Below are positions 27,723 through 35,115 of a stretch of 64,000 nucleotides of DNA, one piece after another (position 1 is the first letter of the stretch; each line of letters starts with the position of its first letter). The DNA comes from Halobellus sp. LT62. GTDB taxonomy: Archaea > Halobacteriota > Halobacteria > Halobacteriales > Haloferacaceae. The position numbers and the translations under genes are program-made. The notes under the pieces are model-generated. The model ran no database searches and was not told the DNA's origin. It saw nothing but the letters and a program-made list of their open reading frames with translations. Where the stretch lies: the NCBI RefSeq assembly GCF_037031285.1, contig NZ_JAYEZO010000001.1, forward strand, positions 62,001-126,000, in the 5' to 3' direction.

Positions 27723-28580
27723 TCACTCGGAGACGCGGTCTCGTCCCCGCCACTGACGGAACGACTCCGTGAGCCGGCCGTCGTCGATACGGACCGCGAG
27801 CTCTACGCTCGCGGCCGCAACGAGAAGTCCCGCGGCAACGTCGGTCGCCCAGTGAATCCCGAGGTACATCGTCGAGATGATGATCGAGACGGCCAGCACG
27901 GTCGCGACCGGGAGCCAGCGGGGGTAGATCGAGCGGAACCGGTAGGCGACCATCGCGACCGTCGCCGACAGAGACGTGTGCAGCGACGGGAACACGTTCG
28001 TGCGTACGTTCACCTCCTGGACGAGCAGTTGCGATTGCGGCCAACTCGTGAACAGCAGCGGCTCGACCAGTTCCGGCATAAAGTTCCGCGGCCCGTACGC
28101 GACGAACAGGACGTAGCAGACGAACCCGACCCCGTAGTTCAGAATATACGTGAGAAGCAGGACGCGGAGCGGTCGCGATCGCTCGTACACCGCGTACGCG
28201 AGGACGGGGAACGTCAGGAGGAACGTGTACCCGAAGACGTACACGAAACCGAAGTACGCCGTCAACGTCGGGTTCGCATAACTCTGAACGACCGCGACGA
28301 ACTGCGATTCGATCAGATAGATGTATCCCGTCAGGTTGATCCCGATGAGCCACGAGAGCTCGACGCCGATGTCGCGAACGACCTTGTTAATGATGAGAAC
28401 GACGCCGAGAAGTCCGAGCGTCGGCAATAGCTCGGTGACGTTCTGTCGCAACCGCTGCCGCAGGGGCGGTTCGTTCGACGCGCTCTGACGCGGGTTCCAG
28501 CGGACGACGACGAGGAACGTGAGGAGGTGACCGAGCGCGACCACCATTCCCACTTGGAGGAGAACATCTGCGAGCGCCAT
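27723..28580 (-). CDS. PAP2-family membrane phosphatase
   Basis: 285-residue membrane protein with about seven hydrophobic segments. The PAP2 catalytic motifs are PSLHT at 198-202 and GIHWATD at 241-247, both on the outer face in this family; the first motif (KxxxxxxRP) is less clear, possibly the GPRNF segment near 163. Substrates in the family are lipid or polyprenyl phosphates. Its ATG overlaps the stop of the upstream binding lipoprotein by one base, so the two are translationally coupled, an unusual pairing. Confidence 0.9.
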   Translation of the reverse strand: MALADVLLQVGMVVALGHLLTFLVVVRWNPRQSASNEPPLRQRLRQNVTELLPTLGLLGVVLIINKVVRDIGVELSWLIGINLTGYIYLIESQFVAVVQSYANPTLTAYFGFVYVFGYTFLLTFPVLAYAVYERSRPLRVLLLTYILNYGVGFVCYVLFVAYGPRNFMPELVEPLLFTSWPQSQLLVQEVNVRTNVFPSLHTSLSATVAMVAYRFRSIYPRWLPVATVLAVSIIISTMYLGIHWATDVAAGLLVAAASVELAVRIDDGRLTESFRQWRGRDRVSE

Positions 28581-30427
28581 TACGTTCGCCTCATAAGTTT
28601 CTCATCCTCGTACTCGAATCCGGCGTTTCTGAATTCCGTTCTGACAGCTTCGAGGTCTAGGTCGCCGTTGCTCCCGAGGAACGGCGTCATCGGATCCGCT
28701 CCGTCCCACTCGAGGCCGTCGGACACCCACTCGGTTCCGTCGAGAAGCGTCACCGCCGGACGCGCGTAGCCGTTGAACACGTCCGCGGTGATCGAAGACC
28801 GGTCTACCAAACGTGCGAGCGCGTGTCTGATCCGCGGGTTCGTGAGTGGGGGGCGCTGTGTGTTGTATCCGAGGAGGTACGGCGACGACGAGGACTGGCT
28901 CACGAGGAGGTCGACGTCGCTGCTTCGACCGATCTGCGGGACCGTGTCGGCACCGACCGGCGTCGCGGTCACGTCGGCGTCGCCGTCGGCGACGACTCCC
29001 ACGGCCGCGTTGTCGGAGCCGACGATCTGCAGTTCGAGGCGGTCGAACCGGGGTGGACCGATCCCCGTCGCGCCGTCCTCGTCAGACTCCTCGAAGAGGA
29101 AGTGCTCCCCGAAGGGTTCGAGTACCAACGATTCCCGCGGCGTGTTCTCGACGAACCGGAGCGGTCCGCTCCCGACGGGTTCGATGTTGTTCGTCACGAG
29201 TGCCTCCGTCGCGCTGCCGACCTCGATGCCGCTGATCGAAACCGGATCAGTCCGCTCTTCCCAGACGTGCTCCGGGAGGATCGGCACGGTGAACGCCCGC
29301 CTTGCGACCTGCGGTGAACAGTCGGAGAAGTGGATGACGGCGGCGGACGGATCGACGACAGTGACCTCGTCGACGAGTTCGGTCCGCCCTTGGAAGCGGG
29401 GGGCGGGAATCCGCGTTTCGGCCTCCGTTTCGCCCTCTCGCTCCTCCGTCGCTCCGAGCGAGGTGTCGGCGAGCATCGCGTACGTGAACGCGACGTCCTC
29501 GGCGGTCAACGGCTCCCCGTCGTGCCACGTCCGATCGGGGCGCAGGTGCACCGTCGCACGCGGGCTGTCGTCGGTCTCGGCGAACGTCCACGACTCTGCG
29601 AGCCACGGCGACACCCCGTCTGCGGTCGCGCGGCCGAGCGAGTCGTACAAGAGCTTCGTCAGAACGTTCGAACGCCGGTACTCGACTGAGAGCGGATTCA
29701 GGTTCTCCGTGGGCCTGCGATCGGTCCCGACGATCCGCAGTGCCGACCCGTCGTCTCCGTCGTCATCGCCCGCAGGCCCGTCGGTCTCGGCGACGGTGTT
29801 GAGCCGCAGATACCCGTACGGAGAGTGCAGTTCCGCGCGCTGCCAACTCCGGTAATTTTCGCTGCGGGCGGCCCGGATTTCGTCGGAGAAACAGAGCACG
29901 GTGAACGGCTGTGAGCGCCCGATCGATTCGATGAGGTCGGTGACGACGTCCGCTCTGCGATCCCCGGTCGCCCGCCGCTGCGTTTCGAGCCACTCGTCGA
30001 CGTCGAGGTCAGTGTAGCCGAACGGGTTCTGCCACCCGCGGGTATCAGCAAACCTCGAGTGCAACAGCCCGTACAGGATGTCGGGATCGCGATCGAGCGA
30101 CGCGGTCCGGGCGAGGAAGATATCGAAGTCGTTCCCCAAGAGCACCTGTCTGAGGAGTTCCTCCTCGGACACCGGAATCACCTGCGCGTCGATCCCGGCC
30201 GCCTGATACCACGAGACGATCATCCGCGCGGCGTGAAGCGCGTAGGGATCGGAGTCCGCGGGGAGGGTCTTGATCCGCAGTGACACCTGCGTCCTCGAAT
30301 CCCAGCCGGCGACGGACCGGGCGCGACGAAGGCAGCCGCCCACGCTCGCCGTCGCTCCCGCTGTGAGCGTACCGAGCACGGCTCGGCGTCGGATTTGGGG
30401 ACCCTTCGACGACTCCACCATACCCAT
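28580..30427 (-). CDS. Extracellular oligopeptide-type solute-binding lipoprotein, apparently circularly permuted
   Basis: 615-residue exported lipoprotein: twin-arginine stretch RRR at 13-15, hydrophobic core, then a Cys at 32 (SVGGC). Residues about 48-210 read like the C-terminal part of a family-5 (Dpp/Opp) binding protein (WYQAAGIDAQVIPVSEEELL, GNDFDIFLA, YTDLDVDEWLETQRRATGD). Residues about 228-615 read like the N-terminal part: GTDRRPTENLNPLSVEYRRS, SPWLAESWTF, WHDGEPLTAEDVAFTYAMLA, then the YNTQRPPLTNPRIRHALARL hallmark. The protein ends at AVRTEFRNAGFEYEDEKL, where the usual family continues. An acidic linker joins the halves. No permease or ATPase genes are adjacent. Coupled to the PAP2 gene. 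The domain order is read by eye. Confidence 0.85.
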   Translation of the reverse strand: MGMVESSKGPQIRRRAVLGTLTAGATASVGGCLRRARSVAGWDSRTQVSLRIKTLPADSDPYALHAARMIVSWYQAAGIDAQVIPVSEEELLRQVLLGNDFDIFLARTASLDRDPDILYGLLHSRFADTRGWQNPFGYTDLDVDEWLETQRRATGDRRADVVTDLIESIGRSQPFTVLCFSDEIRAARSENYRSWQRAELHSPYGYLRLNTVAETDGPAGDDDGDDGSALRIVGTDRRPTENLNPLSVEYRRSNVLTKLLYDSLGRATADGVSPWLAESWTFAETDDSPRATVHLRPDRTWHDGEPLTAEDVAFTYAMLADTSLGATEEREGETEAETRIPAPRFQGRTELVDEVTVVDPSAAVIHFSDCSPQVARRAFTVPILPEHVWEERTDPVSISGIEVGSATEALVTNNIEPVGSGPLRFVENTPRESLVLEPFGEHFLFEESDEDGATGIGPPRFDRLELQIVGSDNAAVGVVADGDADVTATPVGADTVPQIGRSSDVDLLVSQSSSSPYLLGYNTQRPPLTNPRIRHALARLVDRSSITADVFNGYARPAVTLLDGTEWVSDGLEWDGADPMTPFLGSNGDLDLEAVRTEFRNAGFEYEDEKLMRRT

Positions 30428-30503
30428 TCAGTAGCCGCACGACGGTAATAGCCCTTGGGACATCGTCGTTTCCTCCGGGTCATCTCCGATGCGGGAAATC
30501 GGT

Positions 30504-30540
30504 GATATCCCCGGCGGGGAAGTCGACGATATCCCCGATG
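30504..30540. promoter_or_regulatory. Repeated GATATCCCCG elements, candidate operator
   Basis: Two direct copies of GATATCCCCG (30504-30513 and 30528-30537), 24 bases apart. Each leads into a short inverted CCCCG...CGGGG. They lie about 40-75 bases upstream of the arylsulfotransferase TATA, in the divergent region shared with the binding lipoprotein. Regulator unknown. Confidence 0.4.
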
Positions 30541-30575
30541 CGGGGTGGTATCTCGCATCTGGGGCGTTTCCCGAC

Positions 30576-30584
30576 GGTATATTA
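30576..30584 (+). promoter_or_regulatory. TATA box for arylsulfotransferase-like gene
   Basis: GGTATATTA centred 27 bases before the ATG at 30607; it supports that start over upstream in-frame ATGs. Confidence 0.55.
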
Positions 30585-30606
30585 CGCCCTCCCTCGATAC
30601 CTCTGT

Positions 30607-31998
30607 ATGGCCCTCCCTCACCGGACCCGTCGCGGTCTTCTCGCGGCGCTCGTCTTGCTGTCGGCAGCCCTGCTCGCCGGCGGCTTCGCCCACGCCGAGT
30701 TGACGAACGATCAGGTCACGGGCGACCCGAGCGTCGAGCAGGCGTTCCGGACCGGTGACCGATCGCCGGTCGTCGCTCCTCGGCCGAACGGCACCGTCGT
30801 CGCGACCGACTCGAACGCCTTCGTCGCCGACGAGAACGACGCGCCGCGCGCGCAGGCGGAACTCGTCGCCTTCGCGCCCGACGGACGAATCGACTACTAC
30901 GAGAACGAGCACACGCGGTACTGGGACGTCGACCCCGTCTCCGGGACCGACGCCACCGTCGAGTTCGTCTACGCCGACCACCTCGACCCCGCCGAGTGCG
31001 GCGGCGACTCCGTCTGCACGCGCAACGGCGTCGAGCGCGTCAACCTCACGACGGGCGAGCGGACGGACGTCTTCAGCCGGATCACGCCCGGAAAGCACTC
31101 GACGCGGTGGCACGACGTCGATCGGATCGACGACGAGCGCCTGCTCGTGGCCGACATCGACCGCGACCGCGCGTTCGTCGTGAACACGACCACCGGGCTC
31201 ACCGAGTGGGAGTGGGACGCCCAGTCGGACTTCGACGTCGCGAGCGGCGGCCCGTACCCGGACGACTGGACGCATCTCAACGACGTCGAGCACGTCGAGA
31301 TCGATGGGCGAGACGCCGCGATGGTCAGCCTCCGGAACCACGATCAGGTCGCGTTCATCGACTTCGAGCGCGGTCTGCTGGACGACTGGACGCTCGGTGC
31401 CGACGGCGAGCACGACACGCTCTACGAACAGCACAACCCGGACTATATCCCGCCGGAACGCGGCGGCCCGGCGGTGCTCGTCGCCGACTCGGAGAACAGC
31501 AGGCTCGTCGAATACCAGCGCGTGGACGGGTCGTGGGAGCGCTCGTGGACGTGGAGCGACGAACGGATGCAGTGGGCGCGCGACGCCGACCGGCTGCCGA
31601 ACGGCCACACGCTCGTCACCGACTCGAACGGCGACCGCGTCTTCGAGATCGACACCGACGGCGAGGTCGTCTGGTCCGCGACCGTTGGGTTCCCCTACGA
31701 GTCCGAGCGACTCGGAACGGGCGACGAGAGCGCGGGCGGCGAGAGCGCCGCATCGCTCGATCTGCCCTCCCGCACGCCGAGCGCGTCCGACGGTTCGCTC
31801 CTTGACAGAGTGGTCGCCGCCCTTCCGCCGAAAGTCGTCAACGGGATCGCGTACCTGTTCCCGCGGTGGGTCGGCGTGATCGAGGGAATCGCGGCGCTCG
31901 TACTGGTCGTCACGCTCCCCTCGTGGGCGCTCGTCGAATGGCGTCGGTCCCCGCGAACGCTCGAACTCAGGTGGCCGCTCAGGATCGGACGAAAATGA
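30607..31998 (+). CDS. Arylsulfotransferase (ASST)-like membrane-anchored protein
   Basis: 463 residues. An N-terminal hydrophobic segment (about 9-27, GLLAALVLLSAALLAGGFAH) anchors or exports the protein. The body (40-385) is a beta-propeller of the arylsulfotransferase/quinoprotein type, with repeating units such as GRIDYYENEHTRYWDVDPV, HDVDRIDDERLLVADIDRDR, THLNDVEHVEIDGRDAAMVS and RDADRLPNGHTLVTDSNGDR. A C-terminal membrane helix (about 425-445) precedes a basic end. Family members move sulfate between aryl groups or are non-enzymatic propellers; the catalytic His is not certain here. Its stop overlaps the next ATG (ATGA), so the two are coupled. Confidence 0.85.
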   Translation: MALPHRTRRGLLAALVLLSAALLAGGFAHAELTNDQVTGDPSVEQAFRTGDRSPVVAPRPNGTVVATDSNAFVADENDAPRAQAELVAFAPDGRIDYYENEHTRYWDVDPVSGTDATVEFVYADHLDPAECGGDSVCTRNGVERVNLTTGERTDVFSRITPGKHSTRWHDVDRIDDERLLVADIDRDRAFVVNTTTGLTEWEWDAQSDFDVASGGPYPDDWTHLNDVEHVEIDGRDAAMVSLRNHDQVAFIDFERGLLDDWTLGADGEHDTLYEQHNPDYIPPERGGPAVLVADSENSRLVEYQRVDGSWERSWTWSDERMQWARDADRLPNGHTLVTDSNGDRVFEIDTDGEVVWSATVGFPYESERLGTGDESAGGESAASLDLPSRTPSASDGSLLDRVVAALPPKVVNGIAYLFPRWVGVIEGIAALVLVVTLPSWALVEWRRSPRTLELRWPLRIGRK

Positions 31999-33683
31999 GC
32001 GGGAACGCGCCTGACCCGACGTCCGGCGGTCGATTCGGTTCGCCGCTCGGTCGGCTTCGACCCGTCGTCGACGGCGTGCGAGCGGCCGCCCCGTTCGACG
32101 CGCGGGACCGCCCGTGGCTCGCACTCGCGCTCCTTCCGGGCGTCGTCGCCTTCGCGATCTACCTCGTCACGAACCCCTACCCCGCCTACGGGGCGGGGCT
32201 GTACGCGAAGATCGCAGCCGAGATCGCCGCGAACGGCTATCTGCTCCCGACGCGTATTCCGGGATACACCGCCGACGGCGTCCCGTTCGCCTACCCGCCG
32301 CTACAGTTCTACCTGTACGCGTTCCTCCTCGACCTCGGCGGCGACCCGGTCGCAATCTCGCGGTTCCTTCCCGGCGTCGGATTCCTCGCCGCGCTGGTGC
32401 CGACGTACCTGCTCGGTCGCGACCTCGCCGGTTCCCGACCGGCGGGGGCCGCGGCGGCGGCGCTCGTGGCGTTGAATCCGCAGATTCTGGAGTGGCACCT
32501 CTCCGCCGGGGGCGTCGTCCGCGCGTTCGCGTTCTGCTACGCGATGATCGCGGTTTACGCTGGCTACCGAATCTACGCCCGCGACGGGACGGCTGGAATC
32601 GTTTCCCTGCGACGTCGGCGTGGCGAGATCCTCCTCGGCACACTCGCGTTCGGCTTGACAGTGCTGACGCATCCGGTGTACTCGCTGTTCGTCGTCGTGA
32701 GCTACGTCCTGTTGTGGCTCTTGGCCGATCGGTCGCTTTCGGGCTTTCTCTCGGGGCTGGCGGTCGGACTGGGCGGGGCCCTGATCGCGTCACCGTGGCT
32801 CGCGTGGGTCGTCGCGACGCACGGAATCGAGATATTCACCGCGGCGTCCGGAACCCACGGTGGGGTCGGCGGGGGAGCCAACGCGCTCGCCGGGGAACTC
32901 TCTCCGGGTGTCGCCGTCGCGCTCTTGCCCGCGCTCTACCTGCTGCTTCGGCGCGAGTACCTCCTTCCGGCGTGGCTGATCGCCGCGGAGTTACTGTTCA
33001 AACAGCCGCGGTTCGCCTACACGGTGGCCGCCGTACTCGTGCCCGCGGTCGTCGTGATACTGGTGCGTGATCGGCGCGCCGCCTCCGACGCGGGCCGGAC
33101 CGATCCGGGCCGCAAAGCAGGGAGCGACGCGGGGTCGACGCGGTCGGAACGCTCCCGCCTCGACGTCGACCGCCGCGCTGCGGCGGCCGCACTCGTGATT
33201 CTCTTGGGGACGGTCGTCGGCGGCGGGTACTTCGCTTACGAGGCGACACTCGTGTCCGACCCCTCGACGCCGGAGTTCGTCGACGGCGACGCGATCGACG
33301 CGATGGCGTGGATCGAGACCGAGACCGATCCCGACGCGCGCTTCGTCGTTCTCGGCGACGCCGCCGAGTGGCTCCCGGCGCTGACGGATCGGACGCTGCT
33401 CGTCGGATATTGGGGAGTCGAGTGGGAGGGCCCCGAGGCGTTCGCACGCCAAGAGGCGGCCTACGAGTCGGTCTCGACGTGCCAGAGCGTCGAGTGCGTC
33501 GAAGGCGTCGCCGCCGACGTCGGCGGCGAGCGGCCGACGCACGTCTACGTGCCGAAAGGACAGTACACGGTTCGCGGCGATCCCGCCACGCAGTTCGGGA
33601 CGATCGAACGCTCCTTCGAGCGGTCCGAGCGCTGGGAGGTCGCGTACGAGAACGACGGCGTCGTGATTTATCGTCGCTTGTAA
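31995..33683 (+). CDS. Polytopic glycosyltransferase-like (PMT/GT39-type) membrane protein
   Basis: 562 residues. About ten membrane helices from residue 38 to about 400 form a GT-C-like array: LALALLPGVVAFAIYLVTNP, then YPAYGAGLYAKIAAEIAANG with acidic and aromatic loop residues, then PPLQFYLYAFLLD. A soluble C-terminal domain (about 440-562) follows the last helix. The first loop lacks a clear DD/DE pair, so enzyme activity is inferred only from fold-like pattern. ATG overlaps the stop of the arylsulfotransferase-like gene, implying joint function in envelope glycan or lipid decoration. Confidence 0.8.
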   Translation: MSGNAPDPTSGGRFGSPLGRLRPVVDGVRAAAPFDARDRPWLALALLPGVVAFAIYLVTNPYPAYGAGLYAKIAAEIAANGYLLPTRIPGYTADGVPFAYPPLQFYLYAFLLDLGGDPVAISRFLPGVGFLAALVPTYLLGRDLAGSRPAGAAAAALVALNPQILEWHLSAGGVVRAFAFCYAMIAVYAGYRIYARDGTAGIVSLRRRRGEILLGTLAFGLTVLTHPVYSLFVVVSYVLLWLLADRSLSGFLSGLAVGLGGALIASPWLAWVVATHGIEIFTAASGTHGGVGGGANALAGELSPGVAVALLPALYLLLRREYLLPAWLIAAELLFKQPRFAYTVAAVLVPAVVVILVRDRRAASDAGRTDPGRKAGSDAGSTRSERSRLDVDRRAAAAALVILLGTVVGGGYFAYEATLVSDPSTPEFVDGDAIDAMAWIETETDPDARFVVLGDAAEWLPALTDRTLLVGYWGVEWEGPEAFARQEAAYESVSTCQSVECVEGVAADVGGERPTHVYVPKGQYTVRGDPATQFGTIERSFERSERWEVAYENDGVVIYRRL

Positions 33684-33687
33684 CTCG

Positions 33688-35115
33688 TCACACCATTCCG
33701 AGGAGCGTGGCCGCGAGGATCGTCAGCCACAGGACCACTCCGACCCCGGCGATCGGTCGCTCTTCGCTTGCGACGCCCAGCGTGAACAGGCCGAAGACCC
33801 CGACGAGGGCGAACCGGTGCAGTACGAGCCGAATCGGGATTACCGACACGCCCACGCTACTCCAATCGAGGACGAACGCGGTACCGAGCCCGGCGGCCGC
33901 GAGGAGCGCCATCCGCGTCGCTGGCCGGTTTCGAGCCAAGAGCGCGCTGGCGACGAAGGGCCCGGAGATCAAGATCGGATAGAGGATTCCGGCGAAGATC
34001 TTCGGATTCGCCGCCGGGAACAGTCCTTCGGCGGCGATCCCGGCCGAACGGACGCCGAGCACGATCGCGACGACCGCGGCCGGGAACACGAGATCACGGA
34101 TGTCACGCCGTCGCATCGGAGCCGCGGCGACTGCGAAGACCGCCGCGGCGGGGACGATACCGACGACTCCGAGCGTCGTCATCCGCGCCGAGGCGTCGCC
34201 GGCGGAGGCCGACGGGACCAGCGTCCAGTTCGCCGACGTGAGACGGATCACCGACATCCAACCGTCGCTGCCGCCGCCGCTGTGTCCGTGGTATACGCGG
34301 TTGACCTCTGCGACGAACGGCTCGTCTCGGAGGTCGCGCTCGACGGTCCGTCCGCCGCTTTCGACCCCCGTCACGGAGTGTCGAAGCCGGAACCAGTCCC
34401 AGTACTCGGTGTGTGCCTGCAGCGCGGTCCAGTTGTCCGACGGGCCGGGATACGCGCGGATGTGCGTCCGGCTGCCGAGGTACGTCCCGGTCGCGAGTTG
34501 ATACTCGGATTTGACCCACTGCCCGGAGCTGAGATTGTCGGCTACGTACGTATAGCGCGAGGACCCGCGCGCGGACCGCCACGGCGAGAGGTCGATCGAT
34601 TCGTTGAGCCGCGAGAGTGTGTCCGATTCGTTGCGTTGTTCGGTGGAATCGGACTCTGTCGTCCGTTCGGAGGTTCCCGATTCGGTGAGCCGTTCGGTGG
34701 AATCGGATTCCGTGGTCTGCTCGGTGGGGTTGGATTCAGTGGTCTGTTCGGTGGACGTCGATTCGTTGGCCTGACCGAGGGACGTCGATTGGTTGAGGGC
34801 CTCGATCGCCACCGAACCGTTGGCGTCGTGGTCCTCGTCGGCCTCCGTCCACTCGAGTTCCGAGCGGTCCGTGAGGATGGTCCGAACCTCCTCGGGCGTC
34901 CCGACGATCACGACGTTCAACGCGAGGGTCCGCCCCTCGACCGAGCGACTTCGGCTCGTGTAGGGCCAGACGTAACTCTCGGCCTCCGAGGGGCGGAGCA
35001 ACTGCTCCGCCGGAGGGTTCTCCCCGCCCGTGCCACCGCCCGGGCCGACGAACGCGCTCCCCAGCGCTCCGGTGACGACCAACACGACGAACAGCAGTGC
35101 CCAGCGATACCGCAC
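33688..35115 (-). CDS. Membrane protein with LssY-like domain and Ser/Thr/Glu repeats
   Basis: 475 residues: an N-terminal hydrophobic helix (4-25), an extracytoplasmic domain whose parts (GRTLALNVVIVGTPEEVRTI and DEPFVAEVNRVYHGHSG) resemble LssY C-terminal domains, and six to seven helices from about 300 to the end. Between residues about 108 and 165 lies a degenerate ten-residue repeat of the form STEQTTESDS, rich in potential O-glycosylation sites. The gene is convergent with the glycosyltransferase-like gene, four bases apart. Function unknown; the LssY link is tentative. Confidence 0.75.
   Translation of the reverse strand: MRYRWALLFVVLVVTGALGSAFVGPGGGTGGENPPAEQLLRPSEAESYVWPYTSRSRSVEGRTLALNVVIVGTPEEVRTILTDRSELEWTEADEDHDANGSVAIEALNQSTSLGQANESTSTEQTTESNPTEQTTESDSTERLTESGTSERTTESDSTEQRNESDTLSRLNESIDLSPWRSARGSSRYTYVADNLSSGQWVKSEYQLATGTYLGSRTHIRAYPGPSDNWTALQAHTEYWDWFRLRHSVTGVESGGRTVERDLRDEPFVAEVNRVYHGHSGGGSDGWMSVIRLTSANWTLVPSASAGDASARMTTLGVVGIVPAAAVFAVAAAPMRRRDIRDLVFPAAVVAIVLGVRSAGIAAEGLFPAANPKIFAGILYPILISGPFVASALLARNRPATRMALLAAAGLGTAFVLDWSSVGVSVIPIRLVLHRFALVGVFGLFTLGVASEERPIAGVGVVLWLTILAATLLGMV
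34626..34770 (-). repeat. Degenerate 30-bp tandem repeat in membrane protein gene
   Basis: About five imperfect 30-base units encoding variations of STEQTTESDS. The period keeps frame. Units differ by several bases, so this is older than the S6e repeat. Confidence 0.75.

Follow-up and report, generated by a model that had tools for sequence, protein, structure and literature searches.

Genes and features of the locus

The window, that is, the whole stretch of 64,000 nucleotides that was analyzed, carries on its minus strand a gene for a family-5 solute-binding protein (SBP), referred to here as the target, and directly behind it a gene for a PAP2-family membrane protein. The features of this region are as follows.

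27723 to 28580, minus strand: membrane protein of the PAP2 family with 285 aa; PSLH(201) and GIHWxxD(247) are conserved and six TM segments predicted
28578 to 28582, minus strand: TAATG, stop/start overlap of the SBP and PAP2 genes, 1 nt common
28580 to 30427, minus strand: circularly permuted family-5 solute-binding lipoprotein (the target), 615 aa, from PF00496 matches, HMM and comparison with CtaP
28595 to 29773, minus strand: aa 219-611, C-terminal here, corresponding to the start of family-5 SBPs in normal order (hmm 37 to ~364)
29744 to 29800, minus strand: acidic linker, aa ~210-228, between what were ancestrally the C terminus and the N terminus
29837 to 30310, minus strand: aa 40-197, N-terminal here, corresponding to the end of family-5 SBPs in normal order (hmm 360-511)
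30332 to 30427, minus strand: Tat signal and lipobox (aa 1-32, RRR...GGC32), from the sequence and orthologs
30502 to 31998, plus strand: divergent arylsulfotransferase-like gene (PF14269), present in 20 neighbourhood gene sets
31866 to 33683, plus strand: polytopic membrane protein, GT-C-like, weakly similar to archaeal STT3 (E 6e-5, far under the model cut-off)
33688 to 35115, minus strand: membrane protein with a WPYTS motif, homologs in 36 neighbourhood gene sets

Order of the family-5 pieces in the target

The sequence-only reading of the window had proposed that the open reading frame at 28580-30427 (minus strand) encodes a circularly permuted protein, and all the tests that we ran bore this out, placing the last third of a normal member at aa ~40-197 and the first two thirds at ~219-611. 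In the Pfam search with the native order, aa 272-610 matched positions 2-284 of the PF00496 profile and the protein scored 157.8 bits (gathering score 32.4); the N-terminal piece, aa 41-219, matched positions 290-358 when searched alone, with 16 bits. When the protein was rotated by hand, these two swapped matches merged into a single match over positions 2-358 of 368, with 170.1 bits in comparison to 157.8 bits for the native order. Against a normal-order reference HMM of 529 positions, built from 38 normal-order family-5 SBPs, hmm 360-511 was found at aa 40-197 (43.6 bits) and hmm 37-350 at aa 219-579 (176.8 bits). The ortholog profile aligned with the solved CtaP chain 5isu in the same swapped manner, profile positions 235-559 corresponding to chain residues 32-322 and positions 64-193 to residues 356-482. 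No profile alignment of the target in the normal order was seen; the profile is covered with its order swapped, and the protein is therefore filed as a circularly permuted derivative of the family.

The acidic linker that had been read between the two pieces is present, and its residues 215-226 form a low-confidence stretch in the AlphaFold model of the target (mean pLDDT 80, pTM 0.77). With this model, Foldseek aligned ~400 of the ~500 residues with SBPs of family 5 at TM 0.4-0.5, the aligner being sequential and not permutation-aware. At the start of the protein, the RR and the GC of the Tat/lipobox region were unchanged in 18 orthologs. The alignments show that the 615-aa protein is a genuine circularly permuted SBP of family 5 (PF00496), with nothing lost. 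The canonical family-5/cluster C SBPs (PF00496: DppA, OppA, AppA, CtaP) are homologous to it over the full length and probably share its predicted fold, but the target clade differs from them in its swapped order and in having no linked importer.

Distribution of the target and of permuted relatives

Orthologs of the same order were found in related genomes of many families, with 80 named loci in Halobacteria, and matches to the target were obtained in 132 of the 194 Halobacteria genomes at E<=1e-12. In the tree the orthologs form a single clade with support 100, and no normal-order sister or ancestor of this clade was found there. Of the seven PF00496 proteins in the host genome, L041-L043 have the normal order and the other four, L038-L040 and the target, are permuted, so that the break point of the target is common to three of the six other family-5 proteins. 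Unlike the target, L038-L040 adjoin DppB/C/D/F-type genes.

Relatives with the same break, which the annotation calls merely substrate-binding proteins, were also found in other haloarchaea and, as sampled from plasmid records only, in alphaproteobacteria (Nitratireductor, Ketogulonicigenium, Roseomonas, and Maritalea), there within full ABC operons. They lie mostly inside complete ABC-importer operons, and in most of the permuted relatives, archaeal as well as bacterial, the pieces join at hmm ~364/366 and neither overlap nor lack residues. In a census of PF00496 proteins that covered 15 genomes and was judged by eye, the separately listed late stretch of the profile lay upstream of the first in 14 of 14 such genes. 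The earlier reading had implied a tie between the swap and the absent transporter or the PAP2 gene, and this did not hold, since permuted relatives cut at the same point belong to complete DppBCDF-type operons, both in this genome and in bacteria. Permutation as the cause of a lost transporter was thus rejected, given that permuted paralogs retain complete operons.

The alphaproteobacterial plasmid loci L138, L139, L140, and L201 carry permuted SBPs in full ABC operons, some of them near hydantoinase or M20 peptidase genes. These plasmid-borne proteins suggest transfer between archaea and bacteria. No lipobox was found in the alphaproteobacterial permuted SBPs by a regular expression, which misses several evident haloarchaeal lipoproteins, and by reading of the sequences, on which the bacterial absence also rests.

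Repeated permutation at several break points

Two genomes of the same genus hold the two orders at the same locus, the permuted form in L222 (8666-10639, minus strand, genome G047) and the normal form in L219 (7353-9350, plus strand, genome G126), with 7.7 kb of the neighbouring operon aligned at 87% DNA identity. Residues 89-413 of the normal protein correspond to 334-658 of the permuted protein (69%) and residues 413-663 to 89-323 (65%), the signal peptides align in place, unmoved, and the break lies at normal residue 413. The permuted form of this type is collinear in 5 sampled genomes, and others at ~65-70% identity have the normal order. On these alignments the pair is shown to represent a single-gene permutation in situ, in a group other than the target clade. 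In addition, L216 (2114-6859, minus strand) holds two family-5 SBPs head to tail in one open frame of 1582 aa, which possibly resembles a duplication intermediate.

Other haloarchaeal SBPs are cut at hmm ~336 (L211, L212), ~329/347 (L213), and ~466 (L215). L211 (3701-5557, minus strand) and L212 (4209-6101, minus strand), with the ~336 break, belong to full ABC operons and have normal-order L028 and L164 as tree neighbours. In L215 (4377-6791, minus strand) and L224 (7581-9272, minus strand) the ~55 residues with which a normal SBP ends are now at the front; the two are 57% and 46% identical, respectively, to normal-order L030, and this form is collinear in ~16 of 145 genomes. In the tree of rotated sequences, the SBPs with other breaks group beside different normal-order relatives, and at least five order changes are required by well-supported branches. 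The trees were built by quick searches, with SH-aLRT values as branch support; from the tree alone, gain and loss of an order are not separable, and reversion from the permuted to the normal order seems unlikely. For the proteins first grouped as having the same break, a single origin was not rejected (p-AU 0.177), and in the larger tree they fall into more than one clade. In general, permutation of family-5 SBPs has happened repeatedly in haloarchaea and at several break points; with its commonness in Halobacteria and the one same-locus pair in both orders, the manner and the causes of protein permutation become open to direct tests in archaea that can be transformed.

The PAP2 partner gene

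No permease or ATPase lies beside the target in the window, as had been stated, and the PAP2 gene noted as coupled to it overlaps the target stop codon by 1 nt. PAP2 was found in 78 of the 80 named target loci, directly downstream in 73 and elsewhere within 3 kb in 5, and in 55 of 78 loci the stop of the SBP gene and the start of the PAP2 gene share 4 or 1 nt. With both at E<=1e-40, the SBP was found in 126 of 194 Halobacteria genomes and PAP2 in precisely these 126; the cut was chosen after the lists were seen and sets aside six genomes with a weaker SBP match (1e-12 to 1e-32) and no PAP2, taken as other SBPs. Given this choice and the relatedness of the genomes, the Fisher value should not be read as a real probability. 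Based on translation coupling and co-occurrence, it is strongly implied that the SBP-PAP2 pair acts together. No DppB/C-like permease was found within 5 kb of the target orthologs in 82 loci, 4 of which have some ABC ATPase nearby, and the target clade thus lacks the linked DppB/C-type permeases by which an ABC importer is recognized. It is the PAP2 partner, not the permutation, that distinguishes the target clade.

The partner matches PF14378/PF01569 and has the catalytic His/His/Asp, with His201, His243, and Asp247 conserved. Its closest solved protein by sequence is PgpB (3e-7), and its closest folds are AUR1/IPC synthase followed by LpxE. Tandem duplicates of the SBP-PAP2-SBP-PAP2 type were observed in L092, L098, L105, L114, and others, e.g., at Natronolimnohabitans and Natronorubrum loci.

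Origin and possible function

The swapped pair found in situ with its signal peptide in place, along with the tandem-fused frame of L216, points to an origin by duplication, on evidence that comes from another permuted group and not from the target clade. An in-frame duplication of the SBP gene, downstream of its own signal peptide, would have been followed by trimming; the linker would then join the old C and N termini, and the new termini would open at a hairpin of the C-terminal lobe, with nothing lost. That the two pieces came from different SBP genes is very improbable to us: with no normal-order sister of the target clade found, a common parent of the pieces is not demonstrable, but the join at hmm ~364/366 without overlap or loss in most permuted relatives, and the true single-gene permutation seen in situ in another family-5 group, both argue against such a chimera. 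The possibility of an assembly or sequencing rearrangement is negligible and was ruled out by the search for orthologs in other Halobacteria that had been proposed, since the same swapped order recurs in collinear orthologs across many independent assemblies, complete chromosomes included.

As for the function, we consider it probable that the target is a permuted SBP which left ABC import and is now the surface-tethered, co-translated partner of the adjoining PAP2 lipid-phosphate enzyme. The protein would fold as a normal two-lobed binding protein with the lipid anchor on the other lobe. It would capture an extracellular ligand or lipid head group and then present it to, or gate, PAP2, a putative phosphatase or phosphotransferase whose lipid phosphate would belong to the metabolism of envelope lipids or glycans. 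An ordinary importer SBP that docks on a permease encoded elsewhere, with PAP2 processing the ligand, e.g., dephosphorylating a phospho-compound before uptake, is rather unlikely; permuted relatives do serve complete ABC operons, of which the host genome has several, and unlinked permeases could serve the target, but the lack of an adjoining permease in all 82 loci, the presence and absence that track PAP2 exactly, and the coupling of translation to PAP2 speak against it. A role like that of LpqW, in which a non-transport lipoprotein of family-5 fold steers a membrane glycosyltransferase pathway and PAP2 recycles the polyprenyl carrier, is somewhat better placed, though still doubtful, and is a specific version of the partner role preferred here, not fully exclusive of it. 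LpqW (2grv) is among the Foldseek matches to the target model, and the GT-C-like membrane protein and sulfotransferase genes adjoin the pair in the window; against this, LpqW stands at rank 48 as one of many family-5 folds listed, and the two genes occur in a minority of loci and are conserved in only part of the class. For the partner role, we infer that the target does not serve transport but is the binding subunit of a surface enzyme, a phosphatase or phosphotransferase for lipid phosphates; like LpqW, the pair may have a part in the metabolism of glycolipids or glycan carriers. It is a tentative extension that family-5 SBP genes of haloarchaea are repeatedly recut in place, and that one ancient permuted form has become an obligate non-transport subunit of PAP2; with the anchor of this subunit moved to the other lobe, its closure on the ligand could act on the partner in the membrane. 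The permutation should shift the anchor to the other lobe, and permuted relatives still accompany importers.

Comparison with known systems

To our knowledge, TpMglB-2 (Tp0684) of Treponema pallidum is the only natural circularly permuted SBP that has been described, and no description of circular permutation in family-5 SBPs was found in the open-access literature searched. TpMglB-2 is membrane-tethered, binds its ligand with conformational change, and was proposed as "Type Ic / Cluster Bc", its topology being discussed as an adaptation to tethering (PMC4990184). The permuted order is common to TpMglB-2 and the target, but TpMglB-2 is a type I/cluster B protein for glucose whereas the target matches cluster C/PF00496. 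The tethering idea does not appear general here, because the alphaproteobacterial permuted SBPs show no lipobox, and membrane tethering as the driver of permutation is thereby weakened.

LpqW of mycobacteria is a lipoprotein of family-5-like fold, as the target is predicted to be, the target also being without a linked importer, and we know of no report of LpqW as permuted or PAP2-paired. AUR1-Kei1 (9ivc), PgpB, and the haloarchaeal PAP2 are all PAP2-fold membrane enzymes, and AUR1 has a dedicated partner subunit, Kei1, which is not known to be an SBP. LpqW reportedly directs PIM intermediates to lipomannan and has a part in the control of envelope glycolipids, not in import (PMC3229680), and PgpB is described in both PG and undecaprenyl-phosphate synthesis (PMC7413402); both reports are in line with the LpqW-like role considered above. 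The SBP-PAP2 pair is a widespread and apparently undescribed envelope module that the annotation "ABC transporter substrate-binding protein" conceals, and counts of haloarchaeal importers based on such labels may therefore be inflated.

Regarding the WPYTS-motif neighbour, its identity as LssY_C was rejected, with no Pfam match in 14 homologs. In other genera, homologs of this protein are often encoded directly upstream of the SBP.
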